Source: a virus
Virus record (IMG/VR): IMGVR_UViG_3300049440_000066
Coordinates: 1-55,303 of that record
Reading direction: 5' to 3' (one strand)
DNA: 55,303 bases
Positions 1 through 55,303 of the stretch are shown piece after piece. The stretch's first letter is position 1. Each line of letters begins with the position of its first letter. The notes beneath the pieces are model-generated. The model made no database searches, was not told the DNA's origin, and worked only from the letters and a program-made list of their open reading frames with translations. The position numbers were made by a program, and so were the translations under genes.

Positions 1-127
1 CACCTTGGAACGATTGTTGAGGTACGCGACGGGCCGGGAGACTTCGTTCTGATGAGCCGGGAGAACTGGCATCTCCTTCGAGGCTATCTCGATCTTGTGA
101 GTTACACACATATCGACTCTCTCTTGT
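1..127. repeat. Terminal direct repeat, left copy
   Basis: Bases 1-127 are identical to 55177-55303, as read base by base. An exact 127-base overlap at contig ends is what a short-read assembler using k=127 leaves on a circular path. It is therefore more likely an assembly overlap than a biological terminal repeat. An open reading frame crosses the join in frame, which supports circularity or circular permutation. Confidence 0.95.
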
Positions 128-318
128 GGTGGACCGCCGAGAAATTCGGAATCAAGAAGGCCATGCTCGAAGAGTATGTCGTTCACGAAGACCATGACCG
201 CTCCGATCATAAGAGCAGGTGGGGCATTCACTCAAGCGACATCCACAGATTCATCGGACAGAGGAATGACGAATCCTGGGGCCTGCACGAAGTCACACTC
301 TCGGAGACGATGACATGA
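1..318 (+). CDS. Glycosyltransferase family 2-like, 3' part
   Basis: This is the C-terminal part of the glycosyltransferase gene that begins at 54778 and crosses the contig junction. Joined, with the 127-base overlap counted once, the protein has 238 residues. The part here carries the C-terminal acceptor-side region, rich in Trp, His and Asp, and ends in TGA at 316-318, overlapping the ATG of the next gene at 315. It belongs to the same plus-strand operon as the other sugar genes. The family call rests on the N-terminal half (see 54778). Confidence 0.8.
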   Translation, partial: HLGTIVEVRDGPGDFVLMSRENWHLLRGYLDLVSYTHIDSLLWWTAEKFGIKKAMLEEYVVHEDHDRSDHKSRWGIHSSDIHRFIGQRNDESWGLHEVTLSETMT

Positions 319-1307
319 AGGTCGGACTTTTGTATCCGACAGTCGGAGCACTGTGCGAGAAGATGGCTTCGATATTTCCGGGCCTCACGGTTATCGGTCC
401 TCCCTGCGACGATCTCAATAAATGGCCGAAGGAAATACTTCCACTGGCAAAAGCCATCGACCGGCAAGCGGAATGGAAGGAACTCGGCCTCGACATCACT
501 TTCGAGGAAAAGCCCTACAGCGAGTGCGACTTCTCGAAATTCGATCTGCTCATCGAATCGGTGGAAACCTTCAACTATGCCGCCGACTGGAAGAATCATT
601 GCCACCGCCACGAATGCCCGACCATCGTGTTTGTCTGCTGGTACGACAATCCAAGCTACCTGCCGGCGAACTATCGGGAAAAGATCAGCAAAGTACCTAT
701 CCTGCTCGGAATGCCCTCGGCACTTCCGGCATGGCAACTCGAATATCCACAGGCTAAGGTTGTTCCTGTTCCAGTCGGCGACTGGTGGTTTCAAAACGAA
801 TGGACCGGGAAACGCGAAGAAGCCCTGTTCGTCCTCGCCGGCAAAGACCTCTGGCGTCCCGAAAAGTCAGTGTGCGGCGTGGATATTTTCGAGCGACTAT
901 CGGAACGCTTTCCGGGTAAGATGCACCACCACGACGGAGCAACAGATTTCAAGACCGGAAAGCAGATGGCCCAAATGTTCAGCGAGTACCGGGTATTCGT
1001 GAATCTCGACAATCAAGGCGCAAGGCCGCTTTGCACTTCGTTTACCGAGGCGCTTGCTGCCGGTATGCCAGTCGTCGCTCGGGACTTGCCGGGACTGAAC
1101 TACAAGAACTACATCGACGAGAATGGAGTTTGCACCGACGAGTTCGAGAAAATGTGCGACTTCCTTTGCATGTGTTTTTCGGGAGTCGGTTATACGAAGT
1201 ATGCGAGCAATCGAAGCAGGGAAATTGCCATGCAAAACTTTTCAATCAGTGCTGCTCGGCCACACTACGAATCGGCTGCCATCGAAGCGGGGATGAAGTT
1301 CAAATGA
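315..1307 (+). CDS. GT-B glycosyltransferase (GT4-like)
   Basis: A 330-residue protein with a GT-B look. It starts with a Rossmann-type strand (MKVGLLYPTVG) and has a C-terminal donor-site segment with the E-x7-E pattern of GT1/GT4 enzymes around residues 240-262 (SFTEALAAGMPVVARDLPGL). Such enzymes transfer a sugar from a nucleotide donor; donor and acceptor cannot be read here. The start overlaps the preceding stop (ATGA at 315), and the stop overlaps the next ATG at 1304, so it is translated in a coupled series. No signal peptide or membrane segment is seen, so it should be cytosolic. Confidence 0.8.
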   Translation: MKVGLLYPTVGALCEKMASIFPGLTVIGPPCDDLNKWPKEILPLAKAIDRQAEWKELGLDITFEEKPYSECDFSKFDLLIESVETFNYAADWKNHCHRHECPTIVFVCWYDNPSYLPANYREKISKVPILLGMPSALPAWQLEYPQAKVVPVPVGDWWFQNEWTGKREEALFVLAGKDLWRPEKSVCGVDIFERLSERFPGKMHHHDGATDFKTGKQMAQMFSEYRVFVNLDNQGARPLCTSFTEALAAGMPVVARDLPGLNYKNYIDENGVCTDEFEKMCDFLCMCFSGVGYTKYASNRSREIAMQNFSISAARPHYESAAIEAGMKFK

Positions 1308-2194
1308 TCTCTCTACTCTTGCCTTCCCGTAAACGTCCTGAAATCCTTGAACGAATGGTTAAATCCGTTCGCGATACCGCCACAAATCATGTGGAAATAG
1401 TTGTCCGCTTCGACGATGACGACTTGGAGAGTGCTGACGAAGCCCCCGGAGATGTGTCAACCAGCGACCATGTGGATGAAAGCGAATTGGATGTTCCCCC
1501 GGAATATGGCGTTGTCGCCATCGTAGGACCGCGCTATCGGAAAATGACGATCTACTGGAACGAATGCTTTGATGTCTGTGGCGGCGATATTGTCTGCCAA
1601 GCGAACGACGACATGCTATTCACGACTCCCGGCTGGGATGTGATGGTCGAGAAAGCCTTCGCCGAGGTTCCCGACAAGATGCTGCTCGTTCACGGTGACG
1701 ACGTTTTCGGGCATCGAGGTAACTTCGGTCCTCACGCCTTCGTGCATCGCAAATGGATCGAGACTCTCGGATATTTCATTCCGCCATACTTCTGCTCGGA
1801 CTTCGGAGACGCTTGGATCAATGAACTGGCCGACCGAATCGGTAGACGCAGATACGTTCCTTTCAATGTCGAGCATCGGCACTTCTCCCACGGATTCCCG
1901 GAAATGGAAGATGAAAACACCAAAGACCGACTCGCCCGACACGCCGAGGATGATCCCGACGCCATCTACTATAGCCAAGAGAAAATGGCCGAACGCGCAA
2001 GGGACGCGCAGAAGTTAGCAGCCCTCATGGATGCGGCAGTCGATACGCACGGCTGGACGCCTCCGAAGGAACGCTCGGGAATCCTGAGCATGGGCAAATG
2101 TCCGAAGTGCGGGAGTGTATCGACGGTGCCCGGAGCGAATGGAAAGATTCATTGCAACCAGGATGGACATGAGTGGGACCGAGTGAAGAAATGA
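1304..2194 (+). CDS. GT2-like glycosyltransferase with C-terminal zinc ribbon
   Basis: A 296-residue protein. The N-terminus (ISLLLPSRKRPEILERMVKSV) is the standard GT-A opening strand and helix, followed by an Asp cluster (RFDDDDLES, about residue 40). The last ~35 residues form a zinc-ribbon-like tail with CPKCG and a downstream C-x-x-D-G-H. Start ATG at 1304 overlaps the previous stop, which I prefer to longer in-frame extensions. The next gene has a related tail, so the zinc ribbon is likely a shared module, perhaps for docking. A GT2 role is inferred from fold motifs only. Confidence 0.72.
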   Translation: MISLLLPSRKRPEILERMVKSVRDTATNHVEIVVRFDDDDLESADEAPGDVSTSDHVDESELDVPPEYGVVAIVGPRYRKMTIYWNECFDVCGGDIVCQANDDMLFTTPGWDVMVEKAFAEVPDKMLLVHGDDVFGHRGNFGPHAFVHRKWIETLGYFIPPYFCSDFGDAWINELADRIGRRRYVPFNVEHRHFSHGFPEMEDENTKDRLARHAEDDPDAIYYSQEKMAERARDAQKLAALMDAAVDTHGWTPPKERSGILSMGKCPKCGSVSTVPGANGKIHCNQDGHEWDRVKK

Positions 2195-2895
2195 AATGGG
2201 ACATCCTCTGCCTGACGATGCCAAGTCGGACTGAGTTTCTTGCCCGCTTACGGCAGAATATCGAACCGCAACTTAGAACTGGTGTTCGCTTCGTCGTAAA
2301 AGTTCACGATCCCGAACTGTCTCTAGGTTCCAATCGGCAAAGAATGCGAGAGGAATCGGACGCTCACTATGTATCGTTTGTGGACGACGATGACCTCGTA
2401 GCTGGCGATTATGTGTCACAAATTCTTCCTCGCCTTACGAGGGACTACGTTGGATTTTCGCTCCAAGCCTACGAAGATGGAGTTCCCCTTCCAGGCCCAA
2501 CTTACCATTCCCTGATGTGTGGAGGATGGTTTGATAAAACTTTTGCCGATGGAACGAAGGCTTGGTTTAGGGATATTTCGCATCTAAACCCAATCAAACG
2601 CAAACTTGCTCTGGCCGTTCCAATGTACGGCGGCTTTGCCGAAGATAGCCGATGGGCTGGCGAACTTCGGGCGCTGGGCATCGTAAAGACAGAGAATTTT
2701 ATAAATGAAGTCATGTATCACTATTATTCGAGACCAGGAAAGAAAGACGGTGTAAGTCCTGGGCCAGTAACGGCGGGAACCTGTCCGCATTGCCAATCAT
2801 TTTCTACGGTAATGATCGGGAAGGCCAAGATATTCTGCAATCGCTGCTCGTACGAAGGACCGTTAAGCGGACCATTGCCCCTTGCTGGTCAATGA
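2191..2895 (+). CDS. GT2-like glycosyltransferase with C-terminal zinc ribbon
   Basis: A 234-residue protein with a GT-A style core. It has an N-terminal strand (WDILCLTMPSRTEFLARL) and an acidic metal-site segment (YVSFVDDDDLVAGDYV, about residues 63-78). A C-terminal four-Cys zinc ribbon (CPHC ... CNRC) resembles the tail of the gene before it. ATG 2191 overlaps the previous stop at 2192-2194. Base composition is more AT-rich than its neighbours, which may mean a separate origin. Its last 33 bases overlap the convergent minus-strand gene that ends at 2863, and it closes the sugar operon. Confidence 0.7.
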   Translation: MKWDILCLTMPSRTEFLARLRQNIEPQLRTGVRFVVKVHDPELSLGSNRQRMREESDAHYVSFVDDDDLVAGDYVSQILPRLTRDYVGFSLQAYEDGVPLPGPTYHSLMCGGWFDKTFADGTKAWFRDISHLNPIKRKLALAVPMYGGFAEDSRWAGELRALGIVKTENFINEVMYHYYSRPGKKDGVSPGPVTAGTCPHCQSFSTVMIGKAKIFCNRCSYEGPLSGPLPLAGQ

Positions 2896-3426
2896 ATAGC
2901 CCGCTGCGAGATGGTTAAATCTAACGTGCGGCATGACTCCGGTTTTCAATCCCTTTCGGTTAATCTCATCGCAGATGGTGCCATCGACCTGATCGGCTCG
3001 GCATTCTCGGAACTCGGTCAGGATTCCCTTGCGAACGAAAGCTATCCCTCCGACCGCGTGCATTTCGATCACGTCCGCAAGTGGAACTTCATGGCCCGCC
3101 GGGAATAGGCCATCGCAAATACTTGTCGCCGAAAGAAGCCCGTACTCGGGATGCGCTTCGAGTGTCGCTACACCCTTCGAGATGAAGTCTTTCCCGAGAA
3201 TCAGGCAGTCCGCGTCGGCAATCACATAGATACTGGACGTGGCATTTTCCTCGGCAGCCTTCTTCGATTCGATATGGAAGTTCGGTCCTTCCCCGAAAAT
3301 TTCTTCGAGTCGGCAATCTTTTTGCAGGAGCCAGCGAGCGAGAACGGCCTGTGTCAATCCCGACCGAATGCCGATCTTATCGCAGCACATTTCGGTGTGG
3401 TGGATTCTTACGAAGGCGTCGATCAA
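2863..3426 (-). CDS. GT2-like glycosyltransferase
   Basis: A 187-residue protein, short for GT2. The segment YVIADADCLILGKDFISKG (about residues 67-85) is a DxD-type nucleotide-sugar/metal site with the usual following helix. The later VGGIAFVRKGILTEF resembles the acceptor-side strand of GT-A folds. It is the last gene of a four-gene minus-strand operon, and its ATG at 3426 overlaps the stop of the gene before it. It faces the other sugar genes across a 33-base convergent overlap. Confidence 0.68.
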   Translation of the reverse strand: MIDAFVRIHHTEMCCDKIGIRSGLTQAVLARWLLQKDCRLEEIFGEGPNFHIESKKAAEENATSSIYVIADADCLILGKDFISKGVATLEAHPEYGLLSATSICDGLFPAGHEVPLADVIEMHAVGGIAFVRKGILTEFRECRADQVDGTICDEINRKGLKTGVMPHVRFNHLAAGYSLTSKGQWSA

Positions 3427-7981: not shown

Positions 7982-8220
7982 TGGAAAATATAACCATCGT
8001 TCTGACGTACCATCCCGATACGCTAGAACTGGACGTTGACGCTCCGACACTTGCTCTCGACGTGGTAATTTCCTTCCTGCAACGCGCCATGCGGCAATGT
8101 GAGAATGCCGAAAAGATTGTGGTAGCGCAGCAAGTCACAGCAGCCGTTCGGGACGTGAACGCCAACGCCGCTTTCAACGAAATGCGGACTAAGAAAGTTC
8201 TTAGCAACATCAAAATGTAA
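7981..8220 (+). CDS. Unknown small protein
   Basis: A 79-residue protein with a hydrophobic N-terminal strand, then helices (APTLALDVVISFLQRAMRQCENAEKIVVAQQV). I recognise no family. It abuts its upstream neighbour (TAATG overlap) and overlaps its downstream neighbour by one base at 8220, inside the packaging operon. Confidence 0.65.
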   Translation: MENITIVLTYHPDTLELDVDAPTLALDVVISFLQRAMRQCENAEKIVVAQQVTAAVRDVNANAAFNEMRTKKVLSNIKM

Positions 8221-24639: not shown

Positions 24640-24713
24640 TCGCAAATAGCAAAAAGACGAGCGGTAGTGAGCAGGGCTACGGTCGGAAGCCGCGTCGATC
24701 TAAGAGGGCATGA
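24636..24713 (+). CDS. 25-residue basic protein
   Basis: ATG 24636 overlaps the previous stop; the frame ends in TGA at 24711-24713, overlapping the next start. The product is Ser/Lys/Arg-rich and ends RKPRRSKRA. The tight coupling suggests translation. It continues the series of short basic proteins in this region. Confidence 0.5.
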   Translation: MIANSKKTSGSEQGYGRKPRRSKRA

Positions 24714-25897
24714 TGAAGAAACTGTTTCTAGTTGCGGCTTTGTTGTTCTTCCCCGCGTTGTGTCGGGCGCAGAACACAACTATCGTCGCCACGATCACCG
24801 ATCCGACGGGACGGTTCTATACGTTTCTCACCGGAAGCGCCTCGATCCAGTGTCCCGGCAATGAGCAACCGACCTTCAATGGTTCTCCTCTCGCTCGCAC
24901 TATCCCGATCACTGGCGGGGACGGAAATGGACACTTTACGCAAGTCCTTTGGGATACGAGTAAAATTCTTCCTGCTGGATGCACTTGGCGTTGGGCGATA
25001 ACGTGGCAAGACGGGATTACTAATTTCACAACCGGAAATATTGGAGGCGTGACAGGCACCGGGCCAGTCGATCTTTCTTCTGCCATCTCCGCATTTTCCG
25101 TCCCTCTTCCGAATACGGCAGGATTCGTTCTCGGCGTATCGGCTACAGCGCCTATTGTGTCCTCGATGGGAGTTGCGCCAGTAATTTCCTGTCCGACATG
25201 CACGACAAGTGCCGCTGCACTGACACTAAATCAGCTTATTCTCGGTGCTGGCTTGCAGGCCGAAGCCGCACTCGGAAGTCTCGGGACGACTACCACGGTC
25301 CTGCATGGGAACGCCGGCGGAGCGCCTTCGTTTAGTGCCGTAAATCTAGCCACTGATGTTACTGGATCATTGCCTGTCGGCGATCTGACCGGACAAATAC
25401 CAATCTCGCAGGTAGGGAGCGCCGGTCTAAGCGGAACGGCTCCCATTTCCATTGCTGCTACAGGGGCTATAAGTTGTTCGACTTGCTTAACCACAACATC
25501 AACGTCCGTTCCATGGGTTGCCATCTGTGACCAGTTTAATGCCGGTGGCAGTCAACTTGGTTGCTACGGCGGGTTTGCAAGCGGATCGCAGTCGATATGG
25601 GCAGAGACTATACTTCCAACAGCCCATACGTTGCTTCGTTTTACTATCTATATGACTGCTGGAGTAACAAGTTGTACGACATATCCAGTCATATCGTTTC
25701 GGGACGAAACATCAAATACGACTCTCGCGTCGCTAACGCTGCCAAATAGTGTTGGACCTGATTTTCTAGACTCTGGGATTCTTTCCGTCGCACTAACTTC
25801 TGGCGACACATTTTCCGTAAAAACAACGACTGCTGGAGACACGTGTGTGAATACGGTGGGTTATCAAAACTGGGAAGCAACGGCAATATACCAATGA
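24713..25897 (+). CDS. Secreted fibre-like protein with Sec signal peptide
   Basis: A 394-residue protein (ATG 24713, GAGG six bases before; ATG 24710 also possible). The N-terminus is a classic signal peptide: MKKLFLVAALLFFPALCRAQ, basic start, hydrophobic core, cleavage after Ala or Gln. The mature part is beta-rich Thr/Ser/Gly sequence with paired Cys (CPTC, CSTC). Phage fibres are normally cytosolic before assembly, so a signal peptide is unusual. It is the first of five adjacent genes with such N-termini. Confidence 0.7.
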   Translation: MKKLFLVAALLFFPALCRAQNTTIVATITDPTGRFYTFLTGSASIQCPGNEQPTFNGSPLARTIPITGGDGNGHFTQVLWDTSKILPAGCTWRWAITWQDGITNFTTGNIGGVTGTGPVDLSSAISAFSVPLPNTAGFVLGVSATAPIVSSMGVAPVISCPTCTTSAAALTLNQLILGAGLQAEAALGSLGTTTTVLHGNAGGAPSFSAVNLATDVTGSLPVGDLTGQIPISQVGSAGLSGTAPISIAATGAISCSTCLTTTSTSVPWVAICDQFNAGGSQLGCYGGFASGSQSIWAETILPTAHTLLRFTIYMTAGVTSCTTYPVISFRDETSNTTLASLTLPNSVGPDFLDSGILSVALTSGDTFSVKTTTAGDTCVNTVGYQNWEATAIYQ

Positions 25898-25923
25898 TAA
25901 GGAGATATTATCGAGACAATACA

Positions 25924-28671: not shown

Positions 28672-28672
28672 A

Positions 28673-29257
28673 ATGAAAAAGAATCTACAACTCGCCGCTT
28701 TTCTGATGGTCGGAGTTTTGCTCGGGAACCTCTTGGGCGGGTTCGTTCACGCGCAGACCTATCTGATTGCAACCGAAGTCCCGCGTGGCACGATTCTACT
28801 AATGGCGGCTGCATGTCCAACCGGATATGTGGAAGTCACAGCTCTTAACGGAGCGATGCCTCTTGGGACACTTGCCGCGAACGGAGATGTCGGCACAACA
28901 GGCGGCTCAAACACGATCACGCCCACTGTGGCCAGCCTGACGGCGGCGGCGCAAACTGTTTCATGGCCTGTCGGAGTTCCGACATTTGCAGGTTCGACAT
29001 TGGCGGCAACGACGTTCGCTATTGCTACCGGCAGCGGTTCTTTCAAAGGGACAAGCAGCGGAGGATTCTCTACCGTGGGCGGCGCGGCTCCGGGTTCGGC
29101 GGGAGCTACCACATCGAAAAGTCCAGGAACGCCTGCCGGGACTGTGGCATGGCCTGCCGGAGTGCCTACAAATTCCACGTCCTCAGTTACAGGTACGCTA
29201 AACAGTTTCGATAGCCGCTCGGCATTCGTGAGGGTGATATTTTGTCAAAAGTCCTGA
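28673..29257 (+). CDS. Tail collar-like protein with signal peptide
   Basis: A 194-residue protein. An N-terminal hydrophobic signal (LAAFLMVGVLLGNLLGGFVHAQ) is followed by a tail-collar-like sequence: RGTILLMAAACPTGYVEVTALNGAMPLGT, then VGTTGGSNTITPT, ending FDSRSAFVRVIFCQKS. This order matches fibre-tip collar domains of phages, which end in the same F-D-R-x-A/S-F/Y-V-x-V-x-F-C pattern. A signal peptide on such a domain is odd. Confidence 0.75.
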   Translation: MKKNLQLAAFLMVGVLLGNLLGGFVHAQTYLIATEVPRGTILLMAAACPTGYVEVTALNGAMPLGTLAANGDVGTTGGSNTITPTVASLTAAAQTVSWPVGVPTFAGSTLAATTFAIATGSGSFKGTSSGGFSTVGGAAPGSAGATTSKSPGTPAGTVAWPAGVPTNSTSSVTGTLNSFDSRSAFVRVIFCQKS

Positions 29258-29535
29258 TTGCGGCAATATTGCTCCTGATGCAATCTGCTCCTCCGATTGC
29301 GGTGTCGGTTTCTCCCGACAATGCGGAAGTGGCAAAAGGCCAGCAGCAACTCTATACAGCGACGGTGGCGAACGATCCGACAAACAGCGGAGTGACATGG
29401 ACACTAAAGGATGAAAATGGGAATCCATGCTCTCCCGGCTGCGGCACGCTGACGATGGTGACTCCGTTCACGGCAGTCTATACCGCGCCGAACGCGCCTG
29501 ATCCACCAACGGATTTGAAGGTGATCGTGATATGA
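29242..29535 (+). CDS. Small secreted Ig-like (Big2-type) protein
   Basis: A 97-residue protein from TTG 29242, overlapping the previous gene by 16 bases. A hydrophobic N-terminus (VLIAAILLLMQSAPPIAV) looks like a signal or anchor. The rest is a bacterial Ig-like domain (VSVSPDNAEVAKGQQQLYTATVANDPTNSGVTWTLKD). It may be an extracellular decoration or adhesion module. Confidence 0.65.
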   Translation: MSKVLIAAILLLMQSAPPIAVSVSPDNAEVAKGQQQLYTATVANDPTNSGVTWTLKDENGNPCSPGCGTLTMVTPFTAVYTAPNAPDPPTDLKVIVI

Positions 29536-29909
29536 AATCTTCCATACTCGAACGGTGGGAAGAAATCGGCAGGCAGATCAATGCCTTGCAAAAAGAGCGT
29601 GTCGAACTGCGAAGGATTATCCTCGACAAGATCGGGGCTTTCAGCGGGTCGAGACTCACAAGGCGGGAACGGGAAGTTCTGTCATTTCTTACGAGCGATC
29701 CCGGAATCGCCAACAAGGAAATCGCCGATAAACTGAACTGCGCCGAGAGAACGGTCAAGTTTCATCTAAGTTCGATGTTCGAGAAGTACAATGTCACAAA
29801 CAGGCGCGACTTGGTGCTGATGGCAACCGAAGAAATGGAGAGTAAAGCCGATGAAACGATTCCTGTTATGCGTGCCCCTGTTCCTGATGTGCGCCGCATC
29901 GCCAATTAG
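29532..29909 (+). CDS. LuxR/GerE-type transcription regulator
   Basis: A 125-residue protein. Residues ~5-33 form a coiled coil (WEEIGRQINALQKERVELRRIIL). Residues ~41-97 match the LuxR/GerE HTH: LTRREREVLSFL, IANKEIADKLNCAERTVKFHLSSMFEKYNVTNRRDLV, with the conserved E-I-A and T-V-K-x-H of the recognition helix. No sensory domain is attached. It overlaps its neighbours by 4 and 59 bases. It could time late genes or act on host promoters. Confidence 0.85.
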   Translation: MKSSILERWEEIGRQINALQKERVELRRIILDKIGAFSGSRLTRREREVLSFLTSDPGIANKEIADKLNCAERTVKFHLSSMFEKYNVTNRRDLVLMATEEMESKADETIPVMRAPVPDVRRIAN

Positions 29910-30423
29910 AGCGCAGCACAAAGTCACTCTGACATGGACAAACTCGCCCGACACGAATAACACGTTCGTCTATCGGCTAACCGGACCTTGCCCGACGCCG
30001 CTGGCCGGATTTACGAAGCTCACCGCTTCCCCGGTTACGACCGCGACTTATGCCGATTCGGCTGTGAACGCCGGAACGACGTACGCTTACTATGCGACTG
30101 CATTCCTGAACAACCTCGAAAGCGTACCGAGTAATTGTGTTTCTGCGACCGTGCCAGTAGCGCCTCCGACTGGACTGGCAATCAGCAGCGTAGCGATTCT
30201 CCGACAAGGCACTCAGGACCGCTTGCAAGCCGACTGGACCGACACGAATGGTGTGGCTACAGCCTTCACGATCTTCGGCGGGCAGGGACAAGTTCTAAAG
30301 CAAGGTTCGCAAACCACTGGGAATGGGATATATTCTTTCGCAATCTTGGTGCCTCCGCAGAGTGGCGTGTTTTCGGTCTGCGATAGCAAGGGCTGCGTAA
30401 CTCAAGCGTTTACGGGCATCTGA
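29851..30423 (+). CDS. Secreted protein with two Fn3-like domains
   Basis: A 190-residue protein. Residues 1-22 (MKRFLLCVPLFLMCAASPIRAQ) form a signal peptide. Two fibronectin type III-like domains follow (VTLTWTNSPDTNNTFVYRL... and TGLAISSVAILRQGTQDRLQADWTDTNG...). ATG 29851 lies inside the regulator gene in another frame; no strong ribosome site is seen, so coupling is likely. It belongs to the row of exported proteins. Confidence 0.7.
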   Translation: MKRFLLCVPLFLMCAASPIRAQHKVTLTWTNSPDTNNTFVYRLTGPCPTPLAGFTKLTASPVTTATYADSAVNAGTTYAYYATAFLNNLESVPSNCVSATVPVAPPTGLAISSVAILRQGTQDRLQADWTDTNGVATAFTIFGGQGQVLKQGSQTTGNGIYSFAILVPPQSGVFSVCDSKGCVTQAFTGI

Positions 30424-40368: not shown

Positions 40369-41175
40369 TTATCTCTCGCAAAGATTATAGATGCTCATGC
40401 ACTTCTTGGATTCTTCCCAAGGCAATTCAGCAAGAGTTTTCATATCTAAGTATGTGAACACATCTTCCGAAGTCGGGAAACTCTTCCCGCTTTTCACGTC
40501 GAAGCCTGTTTGGAATCGCTTAGGGATGTAATTCGGTGGAAAGAACGATCTGCCGCAGATTTCCTCAAGTCTTCGCACGCGACGCTTGAAGTCAGGACCG
40601 AGGATCGGATCGAGCAGGAATGCCTTCGCCTCACGATGGTTAATCAGCACGCAAGGAAAGCATCCCACGCGCCCGGCATTCATAAGATAAAGTGGATTCG
40701 GTTTGACGCCGTGTTTATGAGCGATTGCGAACACTTGCTCAACATTCCAAAATGCAAGTGGATGATTCACCCAGCAGTCGTACCAATCGGACCATTCGCG
40801 CTCTTGTAATTGGCTGCGACTATCGCTTTCATCGCGCCTTTTACCGTCGTAAAGCTCAAACTCATCCTCCACAGTTTTCAGGAACTCGATCATGGGCTTA
40901 ACTTTTAATTCCTCTGTGCAAAAGCGTGCCTTCGCCGAAGGCACGCGATGCTTGATCTCGACGAGCTTCTCCATTCCCATCGAAGGCAACGCATGAAACT
41001 CGACTCCCCTGAGAAGACTTTCTTTCATTTCTGCCAAATACCCGTACATCAATTCGTGCTCCCAGATCGTGTCATTGAAAACCACAATCAATTCAGAAGG
41101 ATCGAACCTCTCTTTTGCCCAGCACACAAGCGCAGTTGAATCTTTGCCCGTGCTGTAACCAAGGATTCTTTTCAC
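40369..41175 (-). CDS. PAPS-reductase/PP-loop family protein
   Basis: A 268-residue protein. The N-terminus ILGYSTGKDSTALVCWAKE is an S-x-G-K-D-S PP-loop that binds the AMP part of ATP or PAPS. RFCTEELKVKPM and GRVGCFPCVLINHREAKAF (CxxC) are typical of phage PAPS-reductase-like proteins and DndC relatives. The reaction is unclear: sulfate activation, nucleobase or DNA phosphorothioation-like chemistry are possible, but no other dnd gene is seen. GTG 41175 overlaps the preceding stop. Confidence 0.8.
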   Translation of the reverse strand: MKRILGYSTGKDSTALVCWAKERFDPSELIVVFNDTIWEHELMYGYLAEMKESLLRGVEFHALPSMGMEKLVEIKHRVPSAKARFCTEELKVKPMIEFLKTVEDEFELYDGKRRDESDSRSQLQEREWSDWYDCWVNHPLAFWNVEQVFAIAHKHGVKPNPLYLMNAGRVGCFPCVLINHREAKAFLLDPILGPDFKRRVRRLEEICGRSFFPPNYIPKRFQTGFDVKSGKSFPTSEDVFTYLDMKTLAELPWEESKKCMSIYNLCER

Positions 41176-41537
41176 TTGAGACACACCCCCGTCTTTTCTC
41201 CTGCATTTACTCTTAGCCCGGATTGAACACACCCACACCCTACGCTATATGCAGTCGCCTGTTGTGAGACGGGTAGCACAGAGCAGGACTTTTTTCTAGT
41301 TTCGGGAATGGGCACAACGTGACCTTTACTCGCAGAAGTAATGTCATCAAGGCTGGCATGGATTGTGACAAAAGGCCCTCCATACAAGGGTAAGGAAAAG
41401 GGCGATGTGTATGGCACCGCCCCTTGATCCTCTGGCACCGAGACTTGCATCCCGGCCCCATATTCAATTTCTCGGCGCAATCTACCGCGAGTCTCGTTAG
41501 GAGTCAAGAGTTTTCTAGACCTGATTTTCGGCAACAT
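41172..41537 (-). CDS. Unknown early protein, moderate support
   Basis: A 121-residue frame from ATG 41537 to TGA 41172. It overlaps the upstream gene by 23 bases and the downstream GTG by four (GTGA), as other genes here do. Composition is somewhat odd (SVPEDQGAVPYTSPFSLPLYGGPFV). Alternative: partly non-coding leader of the PP-loop gene. Confidence 0.45.
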   Translation of the reverse strand: MLPKIRSRKLLTPNETRGRLRREIEYGAGMQVSVPEDQGAVPYTSPFSLPLYGGPFVTIHASLDDITSASKGHVVPIPETRKKSCSVLPVSQQATAYSVGCGCVQSGLRVNAGEKTGVCLK

Positions 41538-45414: not shown

Positions 45415-45733
45415 CGCCATCCCTCCCAGCTTCGGAATCAGTTCTAATCATGTGCTTGTGCTCCTCGAAAAACTTACGCAATGGGCCATTTTCGGGGAAC
45501 TTAGTCCAATCCTTGCTAACTTGCACCTCGTCGAGAATCGGCTTGCATTTTTCATGTAGGCAGAAGTCTTTTTCCAATCCGTCCATTCCGGCAATGTGGA
45601 CGTTTGTTCCGAATAGAATCTCGGTGAGGAAAGTATCGCCACAGATCGCACAGACACCCAAGTTACCGCCCGGCCCCGGCATGTTCCAAACCGCTTTGCG
45701 TGTCTCGGCCCCGGCAATCGTTTTATCGCTCAT
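45404..45733 (-). CDS. Early protein with Cys/His zinc site
   Basis: A 109-residue protein. VCAICGDTF and FCLHEKCK likely bind one zinc ion; the rest is helical and acidic. ATG 45733 overlaps the stop of the methylase-like gene (ATGA). Begins MSDKTI like the next gene. Confidence 0.65.
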   Translation of the reverse strand: MSDKTIAGAETRKAVWNMPGPGGNLGVCAICGDTFLTEILFGTNVHIAGMDGLEKDFCLHEKCKPILDEVQVSKDWTKFPENGPLRKFFEEHKHMIRTDSEAGRDGDVG

Positions 45734-46299
45734 GGTCGGCCTCCCCACTGTTCAGCCATCGCATCGGCAATTCCTTGAAGTGTACGGCTGCGATTCTTCC
45801 AGCGATCCGGGCTTGGTGGTTCCCGATGTACTCGCGCATACCTGCCTTCCACAATATCGGTAGGAACCAGCTTGGGCAATTTCTTGAGCCACAGGCACGT
45901 TGCTTTTGTTTCGGGATGTCCGAATTGCCACGGTTGAATGATCTGATCCGGCTTGCGCCAGTGGGTACTCAAAACTCCGATAGGATTCTCAATGGCAATC
46001 TTCGGAATGGTCAATTTAGCCAGAAACAGAACAAAGCTGATCGCCTTTAACTGCTCCTCACTCTTGTCCTTGAACCATCTGGCACCACTAACCGCCAAGT
46101 GTGTGCAAGGCGGAAAAGCAATCATCATGTTCCAATCGCGGATATGTCCATCTACAAGCGTTTCGGCAATCGTACATTGAAAATGGTATTTGGAATTGCG
46201 CTCACAAGGAAGAATGTCACAAGACCAAGCATCGTGACCCTGTTTTCGGAAGGCATCCCGCACAATTCCCGAAAATTCACAGGCAATCAATACTCGCAT
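45730..46299 (-). CDS. C5-cytosine methyltransferase-like protein
   Basis: A 189-residue protein. MRVLIACEFSGIVRDAF is the SAM-binding strand and loop (motif I), FPPCTHLAVSGA (63-72) holds the catalytic Pro-Cys, and IAIENPIG (102-109) is the E-N-P motif. Length is about half of a typical Dcm-type enzyme and no clear target-recognition domain is present, as in other compact phage versions. It could methylate phage DNA to avoid host nucleases. Activity is inferred. Confidence 0.85.
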   Translation of the reverse strand: MRVLIACEFSGIVRDAFRKQGHDAWSCDILPCERNSKYHFQCTIAETLVDGHIRDWNMMIAFPPCTHLAVSGARWFKDKSEEQLKAISFVLFLAKLTIPKIAIENPIGVLSTHWRKPDQIIQPWQFGHPETKATCLWLKKLPKLVPTDIVEGRYARVHREPPSPDRWKNRSRTLQGIADAMAEQWGGRP

Positions 46300-49592: not shown

Positions 49593-49674
49593 GTAATACA
49601 AAATCCTCTTGACATGTAATACAGTGGCGTGTAATACGTAATACGGACGGCTCGTAATACAGGGAACGTAATAC
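49593..49674 (+). promoter_or_regulatory. Operator array of six GTAATAC sites
   Basis: GTAATAC, an odd palindrome (GTA-A/T-TAC), occurs at 49593, 49616, 49631, 49638, 49654 and 49668. Two copies are adjacent, the third contains the -10 box, and the last ends one base before the ATG at 49675. The first gene encodes a ribbon-helix-helix protein, the type that binds such short repeats, so autoregulation is likely. Confidence 0.75.
49609..49637 (+). promoter_or_regulatory. Sigma70 promoter of the rightward sugar operon
   Basis: TTGACA (49609-49614), 17-base spacer, TAATAC (49632-49637). Both boxes are strong. Transcription should start near 49644; ribosome site AGGGA at 49661-49665. GTAATAC sites overlap spacer and -10. 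Confidence 0.8.
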
Positions 49675-49995
49675 ATGAAGACGACGATCAGCCTGCGGGT
49701 AGAGGTAGAGGAGAAGGAGAAGTGGGAAGCGAAGGCAGGGGAGCGGACGTTGACGGAGTGGATTCGGGAGAGATGTAACGGGGAGTCCAGCGGGAAGGAG
49801 GAAAGTGGGACGAGTAATCGAGTATCGGACGTGTCTGGGGGTGCTGAAGTTCGAGCGCCGAAGCGACGGGAGCCTGATGCCGGTGGACCTCTTGCAGCAG
49901 TTAAGTGTTCCCACTGTGGACACGACAAGTCGATTCACAAGGGACCGATGCGAAGTTGTGTTTACGGAGACTGTAGATGTGGAGGGTTCCGATGA
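49675..49995 (+). CDS. Ribbon-helix-helix regulator with zinc-binding C-terminus
   Basis: A 106-residue protein. Residues 1-35 (KTTISLRVEVEEKEKWEAKAGERTLTEWIRERC) fit a ribbon-helix-helix DNA-binding domain: a short strand, then two helices. A Ser/Glu/Arg-rich linker follows. The C-terminus has Cys 78, 81, 95, 100 and 102 (CSHCGHDKSIHK ... CVYGDCRCGG), a zinc or metal site. It lies behind six GTAATAC sites and is probably their ligand and the switch for the sugar operon; a metal-responsive function is possible. Confidence 0.75.
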   Translation: MKTTISLRVEVEEKEKWEAKAGERTLTEWIRERCNGESSGKEESGTSNRVSDVSGGAEVRAPKRREPDAGGPLAAVKCSHCGHDKSIHKGPMRSCVYGDCRCGGFR

Positions 49996-50168
49996 TCGAG
50001 ATGCCAGACAAGGGGAAAGGGTACCTGCACGCAGCCTATGAGGTGGTTGAGCCTCACACGGCGGAATCTGTGTGGCAGGATTGCATGTGTGCATCGTGCC
50101 AGGACGTGCGGGAAGTGAAGAAACTGCCTCGGGGAACGACCTTTCGGAACAAGGATGAGAAGTATTGA
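49992..50168 (+). CDS. Small Cys protein
   Basis: A 58-residue protein, ATG 49992 overlapping the preceding stop. HTAESVWQDCMCASCQDVREVKK contains three close Cys. Likely metal-binding; function unknown. Confidence 0.6.
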   Translation: MIEMPDKGKGYLHAAYEVVEPHTAESVWQDCMCASCQDVREVKKLPRGTTFRNKDEKY

Positions 50169-50350
50169 GCGTCATAAACATCCCGTATGATGGGCCGAAA
50201 ACGATGTGGGATGCTATGGTTCGGGGTGTGGACCGCTATAAGTTGAACTACGACCTAGCCTTTTCGGATCAGTGCATTGTCGATGGCCGGCGCAAGCACC
50301 GATTTGATCCGAAAACGAAGCGTTGTACCCTCTGTGGAGCGAAAAAGTGA
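50165..50350 (+). CDS. Small protein with C-terminal CxxC
   Basis: A 61-residue protein, TTG 50165 overlapping the previous stop. The helical N-terminal half is followed by HRFDPKTKRCTLCGAKK, half of a zinc ribbon, perhaps completed with a His from upstream. Function unknown. Confidence 0.6.
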   Translation: MSVINIPYDGPKTMWDAMVRGVDRYKLNYDLAFSDQCIVDGRRKHRFDPKTKRCTLCGAKK

Positions 50351-50544
50351 TAGTCGAAAGGATGAAGAGAGTCTGCCCGAGCGGAAAAACTAAATTTTTC
50401 GATAAAACTACGGCTAAAATGGTGGCAAAAAAGGATCGAAAAGTGACCGGACATTTTATCGTTCCTTACCCATGTCCACAGTGCGGTTGGTGGCACGTCG
50501 GTCATTCCGATCACTATACCGAGAAAAAGGAAACCAAAAATTGA
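50347..50544 (+). CDS. Small zinc-ribbon protein
   Basis: A 65-residue basic protein, GTG 50347 overlapping the previous stop. CPSGKTKFFDKTTAKMVAKK... and CPQCGWWHVGH give a zinc ribbon resembling those of rRNA- or DNA-associated small phage proteins. Its stop overlaps the dehydrogenase start. Confidence 0.62.
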   Translation: MIVERMKRVCPSGKTKFFDKTTAKMVAKKDRKVTGHFIVPYPCPQCGWWHVGHSDHYTEKKETKN

Positions 50545-51362
50545 CGGATCGAATCTGCGTCTGCGGACTCGGCAAGGTTGGCAGGCCGATCCTCAACATG
50601 CTCCGACAGAAAGGCTTTACCGCTGTCGGCTACGACCACATCCCGAAGCACTCCGAAGTTAGCCTCAGTCAGGCAGTCGATCAGTCCGATGCATGCATCT
50701 TCATTGTCCAGACGCCTTCCCTTCCCGATGGCTCGTTCTCGAACGATTACCTCATGGATGCCCTGAATCGTTTTACTGTGGCTGCTAGAGCCGCCCGAAA
50801 AACGGATTACCTCTACATCGTAACGAGCACCACGAATCCCGGTTCCTGCGACCAGTTTCGGCACATCGTCGGCGATAACATCGTCTATAAGCCGGAATTT
50901 ATCAGGCTGGAGCATGTCGATGCCGACCTTCTCACTCCCAGCTTCATCCTCATCGGGGAAGGGTGCAAAGAAGCCGGAGATAGGGCGGTAGGCATTTACA
51001 GCGACCTGTTTAGGTTCCATCCCATCTTCAGAGGCACCGACATCCCCATCAAGCGCATGTCCCTCATCGAAGCCGAACTCGCCAAGATCACCCTCAACTG
51101 CGCCTTGACCATGAAAATTTCCCTCGCGAATCAACTCTACCTCGTCGCCCGAAAACTCGGTGCCGACCCTCGAAAGATCATGGATGCCGTCGGTGCGGAC
51201 CCGAGAATCAATCCCCACTACCTCGAACCGGGACGCCCTTACTCCGGCCCATGCCTTCCTCGGGATAATCGCATGTTCCAGTTTACCGCCGAAAAAGCGG
51301 GAGTCTTCGCGGCCCTCTCTATCGCCGCCGATGTCATCAACGGGATGCTCGATAATGAATGA
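50541..51362 (+). CDS. UDP-sugar 6-dehydrogenase-like protein, C-terminally truncated
   Basis: A 273-residue protein. VCGLGKVGRP (7-16) is the NAD-binding G-x-G-x-x-G. PSLPDGSFSNDYLMDAL, STTNPGSCDQF, IVYKPEFIRL and EAELAKITLNCALTMKISLAN match UDP-glucose/GDP-mannose dehydrogenases, with Lys 182 and Lys 192. SGPCLPRD contains catalytic Cys 238. The family has ~390-450 residues; the C-terminal UDP-binding domain is absent. It would oxidise a nucleotide sugar to a uronic acid, but loss of that domain could change its substrate. TTG 50541 overlaps the previous stop. Confidence 0.85.
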   Translation: MTDRICVCGLGKVGRPILNMLRQKGFTAVGYDHIPKHSEVSLSQAVDQSDACIFIVQTPSLPDGSFSNDYLMDALNRFTVAARAARKTDYLYIVTSTTNPGSCDQFRHIVGDNIVYKPEFIRLEHVDADLLTPSFILIGEGCKEAGDRAVGIYSDLFRFHPIFRGTDIPIKRMSLIEAELAKITLNCALTMKISLANQLYLVARKLGADPRKIMDAVGADPRINPHYLEPGRPYSGPCLPRDNRMFQFTAEKAGVFAALSIAADVINGMLDNE

Positions 51363-52143
51363 AATCTCCGAGTATTGGGACAGAAGGCCGTGCAATGTCG
51401 GCCACGGAATATCTCCCGTTGGAACCGAAGAGTGGTCCACGGAAGTAGCCATTCGCAAATATTTTGTCGAGCCTCATATCGTCTGGTTCGCGGACTTCGC
51501 AAGATGGAAGGACAAAAAAGTTTTAGAAATTGGCTGCGGCATCGGAACCGATACCCGTGAATTTATACGTCATGGCGTAGGCCATATTGATGCGATGGAT
51601 ATTTCCAGTGGGAGTTTGAACCTCGCTGCAAAGAGATCGTGGCAGGTTCTAAATAAAAGACAGTTGAACCTTCCTGACAAACTCGCTTGGGATAATCCCG
51701 TTGCCACATTCCATCTGGCAAATGCTGAGGATTTCCAGCCTCTCGGACCATTCAATCTCATATACAGCTTCGGAGTTCTGCATCATACGCCGAATCCCAA
51801 AAAAGTTTTAGAAATTGCGAGAAGGGGGCTTGCTCCAGACGGCGAGCTTCGCATCATGATCTATGCGAAGTATTCCTGGAAGCATCTCTTCACCCTCCAG
51901 CAGCCCGAAGCGCAAGCCGGATGTCCGTACGTGAAGTGGTACTCGAAACGAGAAGCCCGAAAACTATTGGAGTCCTGCGGCTTTAAGGTCGTGTCGATCA
52001 CCAAGACGCACATCTTTCCGTGGCGCATCCCCGAATATAGAAACCACCTTTACAAGAAAGCATTTCCGTGGAGCCTTATCTCCGAGAAATATTTTGAACG
52101 CTTCCTCGGCCATCACCTTCTGATCGTCGCGGTGAAAGCGTGA
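51355..52143 (+). CDS. SAM-dependent methyltransferase
   Basis: A 262-residue class I methyltransferase. VLEIGCGIGTDTREFI is the SAM-binding motif I, DAMDISSGSL motif II, and FNLIYSFGVLHHTPNPKKVLEIARRGLAPDGELRIMIY motifs IV-V. The C-terminus (WSLISEKYFERFLGHHLLIVAVKA) is typical of sugar or small-molecule methylases. ATG 51355 overlaps the dehydrogenase by eight bases. In this operon a sugar O- or C-methylation is likely. Confidence 0.85.
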   Translation: MNEISEYWDRRPCNVGHGISPVGTEEWSTEVAIRKYFVEPHIVWFADFARWKDKKVLEIGCGIGTDTREFIRHGVGHIDAMDISSGSLNLAAKRSWQVLNKRQLNLPDKLAWDNPVATFHLANAEDFQPLGPFNLIYSFGVLHHTPNPKKVLEIARRGLAPDGELRIMIYAKYSWKHLFTLQQPEAQAGCPYVKWYSKREARKLLESCGFKVVSITKTHIFPWRIPEYRNHLYKKAFPWSLISEKYFERFLGHHLLIVAVKA

Positions 52144-52340
52144 ACGAAGCACATTGGGCTTATCCAAATTGCGGGTTGCTGTGCTCCTATTGTGCCTCGA
52201 TTATGGATGGCTCCGAATCTGATCATTCCGACTGGCCGTTCAAATTCATCTGGACATGCCGGAACAAAGCGTGTGCCCACTTCGGAATCCGTTACAGAAT
52301 GTCGCGCGAGCAAGGCGTTAAGCTGGAGAGAATCGCGTGA
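52140..52340 (+). CDS. Small zinc-ribbon protein
   Basis: A 66-residue protein, GTG 52140. CGLLCSYCASIMDG and CRNKACAHFGIRY give a four-Cys zinc site. Overlaps both neighbours by four bases. Probably an adaptor or regulator; function unknown. Confidence 0.62.
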   Translation: MNEAHWAYPNCGLLCSYCASIMDGSESDHSDWPFKFIWTCRNKACAHFGIRYRMSREQGVKLERIA

Positions 52341-53362
52341 AAGCCGCCCTCGTCGTCACTTCGATCAACGATTGCACCGAACTTCTGAACGGCTACCTCG
52401 CCAACTTTGCAAAGTATGGACGCCAAGCGAAAATATTCCTTATCCCCGACAAGAAAACTCCCAAGCAGGAATTGCAACATTGCGCCATTGTCCCAACGAT
52501 TTCCGGGCAGCAAGACTTCCTATCGCGGGTTGGATTTCCGTACGAAGACATTCCCCTGAACTCCGACAACCGGCGCAATGTCGGCTATCTCATGGCTCTC
52601 GATTCTGGCGCGGAAGTGATCGTGTCCATCGACGATGACAACTACTGCCCGAAGGACGAAGATTTCATCGCGCAGCATAGACTACCAATGGGTAGCCATT
52701 ATCCTTCGACGGATACGCCGTGGGTTAATAATTGCGATCTTCTGTTCCGCAAATGCGTAGCCTATCCGAGGGGATTTCCATACTTTGCCAGAAACTACAA
52801 AAAAGTAAGGTATGAAAGAGTCCACGATCTATTCGAGATTCGCATAAATGCAGGGATGTGGATTGGCGATCCCGATTTCGATGCAATCACTTGGTTGTCG
52901 AATCCTCCAACGACAGCTACGACTTCAAAAGAAATAACATTGGGAAAGAATGCGTGGTGTCCGATCAACTCCCAAAACACAGCCGTCCACCGCGACCTCA
53001 TGCCCGCGTACTACTTTATCCGCATGATTCCCCCGAGTGACCGCTTCGGTGACATCTTTCAAGGCTACTTCGCCCTCAAGGTCGCAAAGCACATGGGCTG
53101 GACCGCACGCTTCGGCTCGCCCGTCGTGACCCATCGCCGGAACTCGCATGTCTACCTGAAGGATGTGCAAAAGGAAATCGAACCGATCCTCATGCTCGAA
53201 GAACTGCTTCCCAAACTCATCGAGCACAAACTGACCGGAACCACGGTCCACGAAAGCTACTTGTCATTGGCTGACTTTGTGGAAAGCCAGGACACGGAAT
53301 TTTATCGAGGAACCGCGCGTCTCATGCGACAATGGGCGGAGACGTGCAAACGAATTGGCTGA
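52337..53362 (+). CDS. UDP-arabinopyranose mutase / RGP (GT75)-like protein
   Basis: A 341-residue protein. It resembles plant reversibly glycosylated polypeptides and UDP-arabinopyranose mutases: VIVSIDDDNYCPKDEDF with DDD at 99-101; AYPRGFPYFARN (Arg 145, Arg 152), the same spacing as the two essential Arg of plant mutases (RGYPFSLR, as I recall positions 158 and 165); then GMWIGDPDFDAITWL, PINSQNTAVHRDLMPAYYF, RFGDIFQGYFALKVAKHMGW, FGSPVVTHRRNSH. The family interconverts UDP-Arap and UDP-Araf. The match is from memory, so a distant GT75 relative with another substrate is possible. Confidence 0.72.
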   Translation: MKAALVVTSINDCTELLNGYLANFAKYGRQAKIFLIPDKKTPKQELQHCAIVPTISGQQDFLSRVGFPYEDIPLNSDNRRNVGYLMALDSGAEVIVSIDDDNYCPKDEDFIAQHRLPMGSHYPSTDTPWVNNCDLLFRKCVAYPRGFPYFARNYKKVRYERVHDLFEIRINAGMWIGDPDFDAITWLSNPPTTATTSKEITLGKNAWCPINSQNTAVHRDLMPAYYFIRMIPPSDRFGDIFQGYFALKVAKHMGWTARFGSPVVTHRRNSHVYLKDVQKEIEPILMLEELLPKLIEHKLTGTTVHESYLSLADFVESQDTEFYRGTARLMRQWAETCKRIG

Positions 53363-53422
53363 GGCGCGGCTAGGTCTGGCTCGTCCTGCTGCGGTGAGTT
53401 TTGGCATGGTGAGGTTTAATTT

Positions 53423-54781
53423 ATGGCTAAAGTTATTCTAGCTGGCGGCCCGAGTTTTGCCTTGTTCAATCCGAGCTTGCACGCCTCCCTCGGTCTGCTC
53501 TATCTCGGTGCGGCTCTCCGCGAAGCAGGCCACGAAGTTAAGATCATCGACTGCCACCGTATCTCGACATTCGATCCCGAAACGAACAAGCTGAAAGTCG
53601 ATCCCGACAAGATGGAAGAATGCGACATCCTCGGCGTGTCCATCGTCACTCCAAATGCCGAGTTTGGCGGACAACTCGCCGCGCTCTGGCCCGCGAAAGT
53701 AAAAGTGGCCGGCGGTCCTCACGTCACCTACATCGTAGATGGTCCTCATGCCCAGTTCAAGCAGAAGAAATACTTCGATGGCTTTGATTTCCTGATGACC
53801 GGAGAGTGCGAGGAATCGTTCGTCGATTTCTGCAACGCTTTCGACAAGGGCGAGGACGTAACCAAAGTGGCCGGAGTCGCGTGGTTCAATCCGTTCGGGA
53901 TGCAGCACAATCCGACTCCGCCGCTTCCCGACGTGACCAAGATGTCAATTCCGGCTTACGACCTGTGGGAAAACTACTCCAAGGGAGGGCTTCAAGTTGC
54001 CTCTATCCACGGACATTCTATTGATGCCTCTGAACGTACTATCGGCTCTCTTTGGACCGCGCGCGGATGTCCTTATGGCTGCTCGTTCTGCGCAGATGCT
54101 CGCACGAAACTCCGGGAAGAAACCTTCGAGCAAATCGAAGCGGAAGTCAAAGCCCTCGCGGAAATCGGCGTCACCGCCCTCCGTGTTTGGGATGACGTTC
54201 TAACCATCAAGGCCAAGCGATGCCGAGAGTTGGCCGCTCTTTTTCACGACTACGGAATGCTCTGGCGCGGCTGGTCGAGAGTCAATCTCATGGACCCACA
54301 ACTCTTCAAAGACCTTGCCAAGCTCGGCTGCACCGAAATGGGCTTCGGCGTCGAGCATGGTTCTCCGAGGATGCTGAAGGCTATGAACAAGGGCACTACT
54401 CCAGAGGCAAATGAGCGTGGCGTGAAAATATGCCAAGATTCGGGAATATCGGCTCGCGTTTATCTTCTGATCGGCTTTCCGGGAGAAACTTGGGAGTCCA
54501 TCGGAGAAATTAGGGACTGGCTGGACCGAGTTCGCCCGGATGCAGCCAGTCTCCATATGTTCCAGCCCTATCCAGGGTGCGAAGTGTGGAACACGCCCGA
54601 AAAGTTTGGAGTCACAATTCCCGCCGAATCTTTCAGTAAGATGTGGGAACTTTGCGACGACGACCCAAGCACGACAGTTCTCGATTTGCCAACCATGAGC
54701 ACGACGGAATTGTTTCAAGCTAGAAAAGAATTGCACGACTGGATTACGGAAAATATCTCCCTTCGATTGGCAACTAGGTGA
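53423..54781 (+). CDS. B12-binding-type radical SAM enzyme
   Basis: A 452-residue protein. Residues ~15-130 form a cobalamin-binding-like Rossmann domain (LGLLYLGAALREAGHEVKIIDCHRI ... CDILGVSIVTPNAEFGG ... VKVAGGPHVTYI). ARGCPYGCSFCADA (about 214-226) is the C-x3-C-x2-C cluster motif, followed by the radical SAM barrel (GVTALRVWDDVL; EMGFGVEHGS; VYLLIGFPGETWESI). Such enzymes do methylations or rearrangements at unreactive carbons. It fits sugar or peptide tailoring here. A GTGAGG ribosome site precedes ATG 53423. Confidence 0.88.
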   Translation: MAKVILAGGPSFALFNPSLHASLGLLYLGAALREAGHEVKIIDCHRISTFDPETNKLKVDPDKMEECDILGVSIVTPNAEFGGQLAALWPAKVKVAGGPHVTYIVDGPHAQFKQKKYFDGFDFLMTGECEESFVDFCNAFDKGEDVTKVAGVAWFNPFGMQHNPTPPLPDVTKMSIPAYDLWENYSKGGLQVASIHGHSIDASERTIGSLWTARGCPYGCSFCADARTKLREETFEQIEAEVKALAEIGVTALRVWDDVLTIKAKRCRELAALFHDYGMLWRGWSRVNLMDPQLFKDLAKLGCTEMGFGVEHGSPRMLKAMNKGTTPEANERGVKICQDSGISARVYLLIGFPGETWESIGEIRDWLDRVRPDAASLHMFQPYPGCEVWNTPEKFGVTIPAESFSKMWELCDDDPSTTVLDLPTMSTTELFQARKELHDWITENISLRLATR

Positions 54782-55303
54782 ATCTTAGCGTGGTCATGGC
54801 TGGCCGCAACGATGGATATGGTGGCGGAGACTATCTCTCCCGAATGCACCGATGCCTTGCGAGCGTGGTTCCGCTCGGCTGTGAAATCATCTTCGTCGAA
54901 TGGAATCCGCCGCAAGACAGGCCGACACTCATCGAAAAGATCGGCTACAAGGGTATTCATCTAATCACCGTTTCTCACGATCTTCACTCACGGATGCACG
55001 GCGAAGACCTCATGCCGATGTTCGAGTATCGCGCCAAGAATGTCGGCATCCGGCGAGCGAAGGGCGATTGGATTCTAGTAATGAACTCGGACATCGAACT
55101 GACCGAAGCGATGCGGGTGAGGCTCCAAAAAGAACTCTACTGCGATTATATCTACGGAGCCAAGCGGCACGACATTCACCTTGGAACGATTGTTGAGGTA
55201 CGCGACGGGCCGGGAGACTTCGTTCTGATGAGCCGGGAGAACTGGCATCTCCTTCGAGGCTATCTCGATCTTGTGAGTTACACACATATCGACTCTCTCT
55301 TGT
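54778..55303 (+). CDS. Glycosyltransferase family 2-like, 5' part
   Basis: GTG 54778 overlaps the radical SAM stop (GTGA). NLSVVMAGRNDGYGG is a GT-A opening, EYRAKNVGIRRAKGDWILVMNSDIELTEAMRVRLQ is the nucleotide-sugar site with the DxD-like NSD, about residues 84-117. The frame runs off the end at 55303 and continues at base 1 (via the 127-base overlap) to 318, 238 residues in all. A small GT2 enzyme. Confidence 0.82.
   Translation, partial: MNLSVVMAGRNDGYGGGDYLSRMHRCLASVVPLGCEIIFVEWNPPQDRPTLIEKIGYKGIHLITVSHDLHSRMHGEDLMPMFEYRAKNVGIRRAKGDWILVMNSDIELTEAMRVRLQKELYCDYIYGAKRHDIHLGTIVEVRDGPGDFVLMSRENWHLLRGYLDLVSYTHIDSLL
55177..55303. repeat. Terminal direct repeat, right copy
   Basis: Identical to bases 1-127. 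It makes the contig circular; see the left copy. Confidence 0.95.

Follow-up and report, generated by a model that had tools for sequence, protein, structure and literature searches.

Glycosyltransferases are common in phages, and the sugars that they make and the acceptors that they use are mostly undescribed. Among the described cases, the virion proteins of mycobacteriophage Che8 are glycosylated, and gp110 is named as the glycosyltransferase essential for capsid glycosylation in the work of Freeman et al. 2023 as it is cited in PMC12363180; phage RB69 arabinosylates its DNA (PMC6024577). In bacteria, MtdL and Hyg20 (PDB 7XPR, 7YUA, and others) are GT75 GDP-pyranose mutases of the A201A and hygromycin antibiotic pathways, and MtdL interconverts the pyranose and furanose forms of GDP-L-fucose or GDP-L-galactose (PMC9937993). 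GT75 has also been mentioned as a soil-phage gene (PMC12016548). Here we describe an operon of a soil phage, IMG/VR virus record IMGVR_UViG_3300049440_000066, in which the gene for an MtdL-like mutase lies among phage glycosyltransferase genes and next to the gene for a B12-binding radical S-adenosylmethionine (SAM) enzyme. The window referred to below is the whole stretch that was analyzed, positions 1 to 55,303 of that record (55,303 nucleotides).

Because its terminal 127 bp are identical (bases 1-127 = 55177-55303), the window represents a single circular genome with a length of 55,176 bp. On the + strand, 13 open frames run from 49675 across the junction to 2895, shortly upstream of and codirectional with the genes for the terminase (5746), portal (8531), and major capsid protein (13154). 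Adjacent genes overlap by 4 to 28 nt at 11 of the 12 gene junctions, the sole exception being a 60-nt gap between the mutase and radical SAM genes, in agreement with an earlier note on this DNA that had described some 12 genes overlapping stop to start through the contig junction. Gene families were assigned by profile search (Pfam, PHROGs, and NCBIfam), which confirmed UDPG_MGDP_dh, Methyltransf_23, RGP (GT75), and Radical_SAM plus B12-binding and thus upheld the methyltransferase and radical SAM enzyme of that note; the GT2 and GT1 matches were weaker, and several glycosyltransferase matches lay under the Pfam cut-offs. Small proteins with zinc-ribbon-like cysteine pairs are encoded among the enzymes.

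The earlier note had proposed a search for the same gene order in other phages. The whole operon or a large part of it recurs in 13 related IMG/VR phages from soil (G001 to G007, G011 to G013, and the fragments P371, P092, and P187), and the order is mostly kept, with the block inverted and rearranged in G003. This recurrence excludes a chance arrangement. The radical SAM gene and three glycosyltransferase genes (those for GT4, GT2b, and GT2c, described below) were found in all 13 relatives, and single operon genes have been gained or lost among them. Across the relatives, the radical SAM protein is 75 to 89% identical to that of the window; in the comparison with G013 the value is 89%, versus 37% for the terminase and 46% for the capsid protein. 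Since fourfold-degenerate sites are saturated, matching at only about 30 to 45%, the radical SAM protein is held by strong purifying selection and not by recent sharing. Because of this conservation, the coupling of the genes, and the co-occurrence of the parts, a dedicated multienzyme glycan pathway is well supported, as the earlier note had argued in preference to a single glucosylation step, and we consider the existence of such a pathway highly probable. No relative of 50472-53362 turned up in a DNA search of phage records, and a genome scan with the radical SAM alignment found no bacterial relative. Other genes were seen among the operon genes of G005 and G006: three frames in G005 (L033 7626-8132, 10852-11361, and 12493-13092) that by eye look like HNH/AP2 homing endonucleases, an RNA-ligase-family gene in the same phage (PF09414; L033 9483-10187), and, between the dehydrogenase and methyltransferase genes of G006, a gene for a 211-amino-acid (aa) protein with no family assigned (L032 4213-4845, - strand).

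The mutase gene (52337..53362, + strand) encodes a GT75 (RGP family) nucleoside diphosphate-pyranose mutase whose alignment with MtdL spans 305 residues at 46% identity. Each of the 14 MtdL residues checked, which function in Mn binding, substrate binding, or catalysis, is present: the Mn-binding DDD and His are D99-D101 and H266 in the window mutase, and Arg159, Asp87, Asp195, Asp260, Arg257, and Gln229 of MtdL correspond to R145, D77, D180, D239, R236, and Q213, respectively. Among the relatives, G003 alone deviates at functional residues (D77 and H266). Of the positions that determine base selectivity in MtdL, Thr13 and Ser86 are kept as in GDP users, and Asn42 is replaced by Lys; these residue roles come from work on MtdL, in which exchange of Thr13 or Ser86 weakens or abolishes GDP binding (PMC9937993). 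Identity as a plant-type UDP-arabinopyranose mutase was considered and rejected, the score being 34 bits to the solved enzyme 8cid versus 245 bits to MtdL. The designation "RGP-like protein" in the earlier note was thus correct as to family, and the proper label is MtdL-like GDP-sugar mutase rather than a plant-type enzyme. Judged from sequence comparison, assignment to the MtdL-like pyranose/furanose mutases is strongly supported; an AlphaFold model made from a shallow alignment was poor, with a mean predicted local distance difference test (pLDDT) score of 46. Besides the Lys at Asn42, the phage enzyme differs from MtdL and Hyg20 in its setting, since its gene lies in a phage glycosyltransferase operon together with a radical SAM gene, whereas theirs lie in antibiotic clusters. 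The MtdL host itself was among the relatives recovered when bacterial genomes were scanned, and M. thermotolerans locus L074 holds a mutase and a gmd homologue.

The product of the next gene (53423..54781, + strand) is a B12-binding radical SAM enzyme (PF04055, E=6e-21; PF02310, 37.8 bits versus a cut-off of 32.1) in which the CxxxCxxC cysteines C216, C220, and C223 are invariant. A 119-kb soil phage (L051) encodes, in a row, a radical SAM protein (61% identical), a mutase (41%), a sugar C-methyltransferase (PF08421/PF08484), and a gmd-like GDP-mannose 4,6-dehydratase; the last scored 269 bits and did not reach the equivalog cut-off of 415, with the next family far behind. On an Omnitrophota contig the mutase gene is adjoined by genes for a GDP-fucose-synthase-like short-chain dehydrogenase/reductase and a full-length dehydrogenase. 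Phage L105 (51 kb) has a major head protein of the same PHROG as that of the window, and directly after its head genes come a glycosyltransferase/methyltransferase fusion, a mutase, and more glycosyltransferase genes. All three contexts fit GDP-sugar chemistry, and that of L105 also fits a late, virion-linked role. In the open-licence literature we found no description of an MtdL-like mutase together with a B12-radical SAM enzyme in a phage and no phage cluster that joins radical SAM enzymes with glycans. As a separate observation, an intein splits the CxxxCxxC iron-sulfur motif in the radical SAM gene of L051 (6486-8903), and a weakly Vsr-like frame (7312-8094) overlaps the intein region in a different reading frame.

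Four glycosyltransferase genes follow on the + strand. GT2a, a GT2-like enzyme with a conserved NxD motif (PF00535, E=1.5e-4, just under the cut-off), is split by the junction into a 5' part (54778..55303) and a 3' part (1..318, of which bases 1-127 repeat the window end). It is followed by a GT4-like (GT-B) enzyme (315..1307; PF13692, E=0.0016, under the cut-off; 46 to 76% identity in the relatives) and by two GT2-like enzymes with C-terminal zinc ribbons, GT2b (1304..2194; glycosyltransferase family phrog_14945, E=1e-24) and GT2c of type A (2173..2895; glycosyltransferase family phrog_14775, E=2e-26), which have a 29-residue zinc ribbon in common (hhalign, 96%). Of the one GT4 and three GT2 enzymes previously proposed, GT2b and GT2c are therefore borne out by PHROG families, and the Pfam matches of GT2a and GT4 stay under the cut-offs. 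Che8 gp108 is a homologue of GT2c, with 25 to 32% identity over about 190 residues and E=1e-9 in a search of the phage collection; the gp108 gene adjoins those for gp109 and gp110, neither of which gave a significant match. The two systems are alike in their tandem phage glycosyltransferases, and the window operon differs in adding sugar-nucleotide enzymes, zinc ribbons, and the radical SAM enzyme.

The GT2c tree has two clades with 100/100 support. Type A occurs in G000, G003, G011, and G013, which are exactly the genomes with a reverse-strand gene at the end of the operon (Fisher P = 0.001, uncorrected for relatedness); the radical SAM tree does not group them in this way. GT2c has been exchanged between two types independently of the phage backbone; G000 and G006, for example, have major capsid proteins that are about 98% identical and different GT2c types. 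The reverse-strand gene itself (2863..3426, - strand) encodes a possible glycosyltransferase whose DxD-like motif is kept by four homologues. The protein had no significant family match, profile comparison with GT2a and GT2c gave nothing, and an AlphaFold model from a shallow alignment was poor (mean pLDDT, 48). The fifth glycosyltransferase named at this position in the earlier note thus retains its conserved DxD and otherwise amounts to a guess.

The dehydrogenase gene (50541..51362, + strand) encodes a 273-aa protein of the UDP-glucose/GDP-mannose dehydrogenase family (PF00984, E=2e-22; PF03721, E=2e-10) that lacks the C-terminal nucleotide-binding domain; PF03720 was not matched in the Pfam search, and the proteins of the relatives are likewise short (about 259 to 275 aa). 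Cys238, Lys182, and Asn186, which we take to be the catalytic positions of this family, are invariant, and the Cys aligns with that of 3vtf. The family of the previously proposed UDP-sugar dehydrogenase is thus correct, and its substrate is unsupported for a protein truncated in this way; in particular, a UDP-glucose dehydrogenase label is not justified. The adjacent gene (51355..52143, + strand) encodes a class I SAM methyltransferase (PF13489, E=8e-19; phrog_22502, E=5e-34). Both genes are present in G000, G003, G005 to G007, and G011 to G013, and neither is present in G001, G002, and G004, which are close kin, so that the absences may represent one loss. Such genes are also neighbors in Synechococcus phage Bellamy, where gp226, 40% identical to the methyltransferase, adjoins the dehydrogenase in a cluster with NolO, NadE, and a glycosyltransferase; they lie near each other in a 642-kb phage, and in Microbacterium phage Metamorphoo a similarly short dehydrogenase is encoded beside a glycosyltransferase. 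Pelagibacter phage HTVC008M gp156 resembles GT2b. The Bellamy and HTVC008M clusters differ from the window operon in their longer dehydrogenase genes, NolO, and NadE, and neither a mutase nor a B12-radical SAM partner is annotated in the stretches examined.

Taken together, the operon could encode a soluble, cytoplasmic, phage-specific pathway that places a short furanose-containing oligosaccharide on virion proteins, and we give this entire statement, target included, an even chance. Nucleotide sugars of the host would be taken up by the pathway, remodeled, and joined on a phage product to form a short oligosaccharide. The MtdL-like mutase would convert a host GDP-hexopyranose, perhaps of the GDP-L-fucose or GDP-L-galactose type, to its furanose, after which the B12-radical SAM enzyme might introduce a carbon-level change such as C-methylation on the furanose or a related sugar. 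Where they are present, the truncated dehydrogenase and the methyltransferase may oxidize and methylate a sugar as a unit, a coupling seen in their co-occurrence. Sugars would then be added sequentially by GT2a, GT4, GT2b, and GT2c, with the zinc-ribbon glycosyltransferases probably acting jointly, and the outer sugar may vary between phages through the exchangeable GT2c types, one of which is tied to the reverse-strand gene. A virion protein as target is favored by elimination, by the position of the operon, and by the Che8 parallel. It is possible, and on balance doubtful, that virions carry a furanose oligosaccharide remodeled by the radical SAM enzyme and that the outer GT2c, either alone or together with the reverse-strand gene, is swapped independently of the capsid to give glycan serotypes on near-identical coats.

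Several points weigh against this reconstruction. The target is inferred, and nothing points to a particular carrier among the virion proteins; moreover, the Che8 homologue found is gp108 and not the essential gp110. The reconstruction also assumes that the host supplies GDP-fucose or GDP-galactose, and the replacement of Asn42 by Lys leaves the GDP preference of the mutase uncertain. Finally, G011 and G012 (the latter a 24.5-kb fragment) yielded no mutase, and G011 and G013 no GT2a; neither enzyme is therefore essential in every phage.

We also considered whether the host surface, such as lipopolysaccharide or another glycan, is modified in infected cells, perhaps as a barrier to superinfection, with the glycosyltransferases acting on lipid-linked or lipopolysaccharide acceptors. 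Comparable clusters of UDP-glucose dehydrogenase, methyltransferase, NolO, NadE, and glycosyltransferase genes occur in cyanophages and one pelagiphage, for which we know of no proven virion target, and exchangeable outer glycosyltransferases are also typical of surface antigen variation. However, membrane-span-like hydropathy was reached by none of the operon proteins, which makes operon-driven export of a glycan unlikely, and the operon contains no flippase, polymerase, lipid-carrier enzyme, or initiating transferase. It is located just 5' of the terminase/head module, with which it shares a strand, and the related L105 cluster follows head genes. We therefore regard host-surface modification as unlikely. 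Glycosylation of the phage DNA, known from T-even phages and RB69, appears less likely again. A C5-methyltransferase-like gene (phrog_757; 189 aa) is present in the window (45730-46299, - strand), and another such gene (PF00145) is inserted within the operon of G002 (L029 13233-13898), but no hydroxymethyl acceptor is evident: neither a thymidylate-synthase-type hydroxymethylase (PF00303) nor TET/JBP (PF12851) was detected, as the earlier note had observed of hydroxymethyl-pyrimidine synthases. RB69 shares with the window a phage-encoded unusual-sugar pathway but has hydroxymethylcytosine, and the window mutase differs in type from the plant UDP-arabinose mutases. The earlier note preferred a protein or surface glycan to modified DNA, and the support for this is negative, from these absences, and indirect, from the homology of GT2c to gp108 and the position of the L105 cluster. 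A polymerized or exported host-surface polysaccharide is disfavored by the lack of membrane-protein-like products of the operon.

B12-radical SAM enzymes are common in antibiotic-type pathways, which we counted in favor of a small glycosylated product, nucleoside- or aminoglycoside-like, in place of a glycan bound to a macromolecule. The origin of MtdL and Hyg20 in antibiotic pathways (PMC9937993) and the L074 locus point the same way, but no core-forming or export genes were recognized in the operon by profiles, and a structural glycan would more readily account for the four glycosyltransferases kept throughout the phage group; a small glycosylated product is very improbable. Least probable is passing host-derived metabolic cargo with no phage-specific product, for although homing-endonuclease-like and other genes lie between the operon genes of G005 and single genes come and go, the operon occurs in 13 other phages and its radical SAM protein is conserved despite saturated fourfold sites.

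Expression of the putative glycan pathway may be controlled by the protein of the first gene acting on repeats upstream of it. Directly 5' of this gene is a probable operator/promoter (49593..49674, + strand) in which six GTAATAC repeats overlap a TTGACA hexamer; the window has nine copies of GTAATAC, a number reached by none of the shuffles. The arrangement is repeated in G005, P092, and G012, and G006 and G003 have TGTACCCACA repeats in its place. TTGACA or a near match is kept in the relatives, and repeats around it, heptamers or decamers differing by phage group, also lie 5' of the operon at L006 5913-5965 and L031 4613-4679. A search of the viral collection with the exact repeat pattern gave no further match, and the TTGACA site is missing from the output of a promoter scanner, whose filter rejects the second hexamer of the site. 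The first gene (49675..49995, + strand) encodes a small protein, probably the operon regulator, with a C-terminal zinc ribbon (weak UPF0547 zinc match under the cut-off) and an N terminus that by eye resembles ribbon-helix-helix proteins. The regulator of the earlier note keeps this resemblance, which profile search did not support. The repeats are likely the operator of the first-gene protein and exchanged along with its specificity.

The remaining + strand frames encode a 63-aa protein (49977..50168; 59 to 64% identity over full or partial length in G005, G006, P092, G011, and G012), a 61-aa zinc-ribbon-like protein with a visible CxxC pair and a homologue in G012 (50165..50350), a 73-aa zinc-ribbon-like phage protein (50323..50544; phrog_15216, E=1.8e-6), and a 66-aa zinc-ribbon-like protein with visible cysteine pairs (52140..52340). 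Elsewhere in the window, the early region contains a 3'-phosphoadenosine 5'-phosphosulfate reductase-family gene (40369-41238, - strand), and consecutive late proteins (region 24710-30423; starts at 24710, 25912, 28673, 29242, and 29851) have apparent Sec signal peptides and are mostly Ser/Thr rich, which is atypical of phage virion proteins.

The pathway is real, conserved, and unusual, and its parts come from known families. Its mutase points to a GDP-furanose donor, for which the open-licence literature describes only plant (UDP) and bacterial antibiotic (GDP) pathways, and the mutase is coupled to a radical SAM enzyme whose gene is among the most conserved of the phage group. Moreover, G000 and G006, with their near-identical major capsid proteins and different glycan genes, form a natural pair in which the role of a phage glycan is directly testable.

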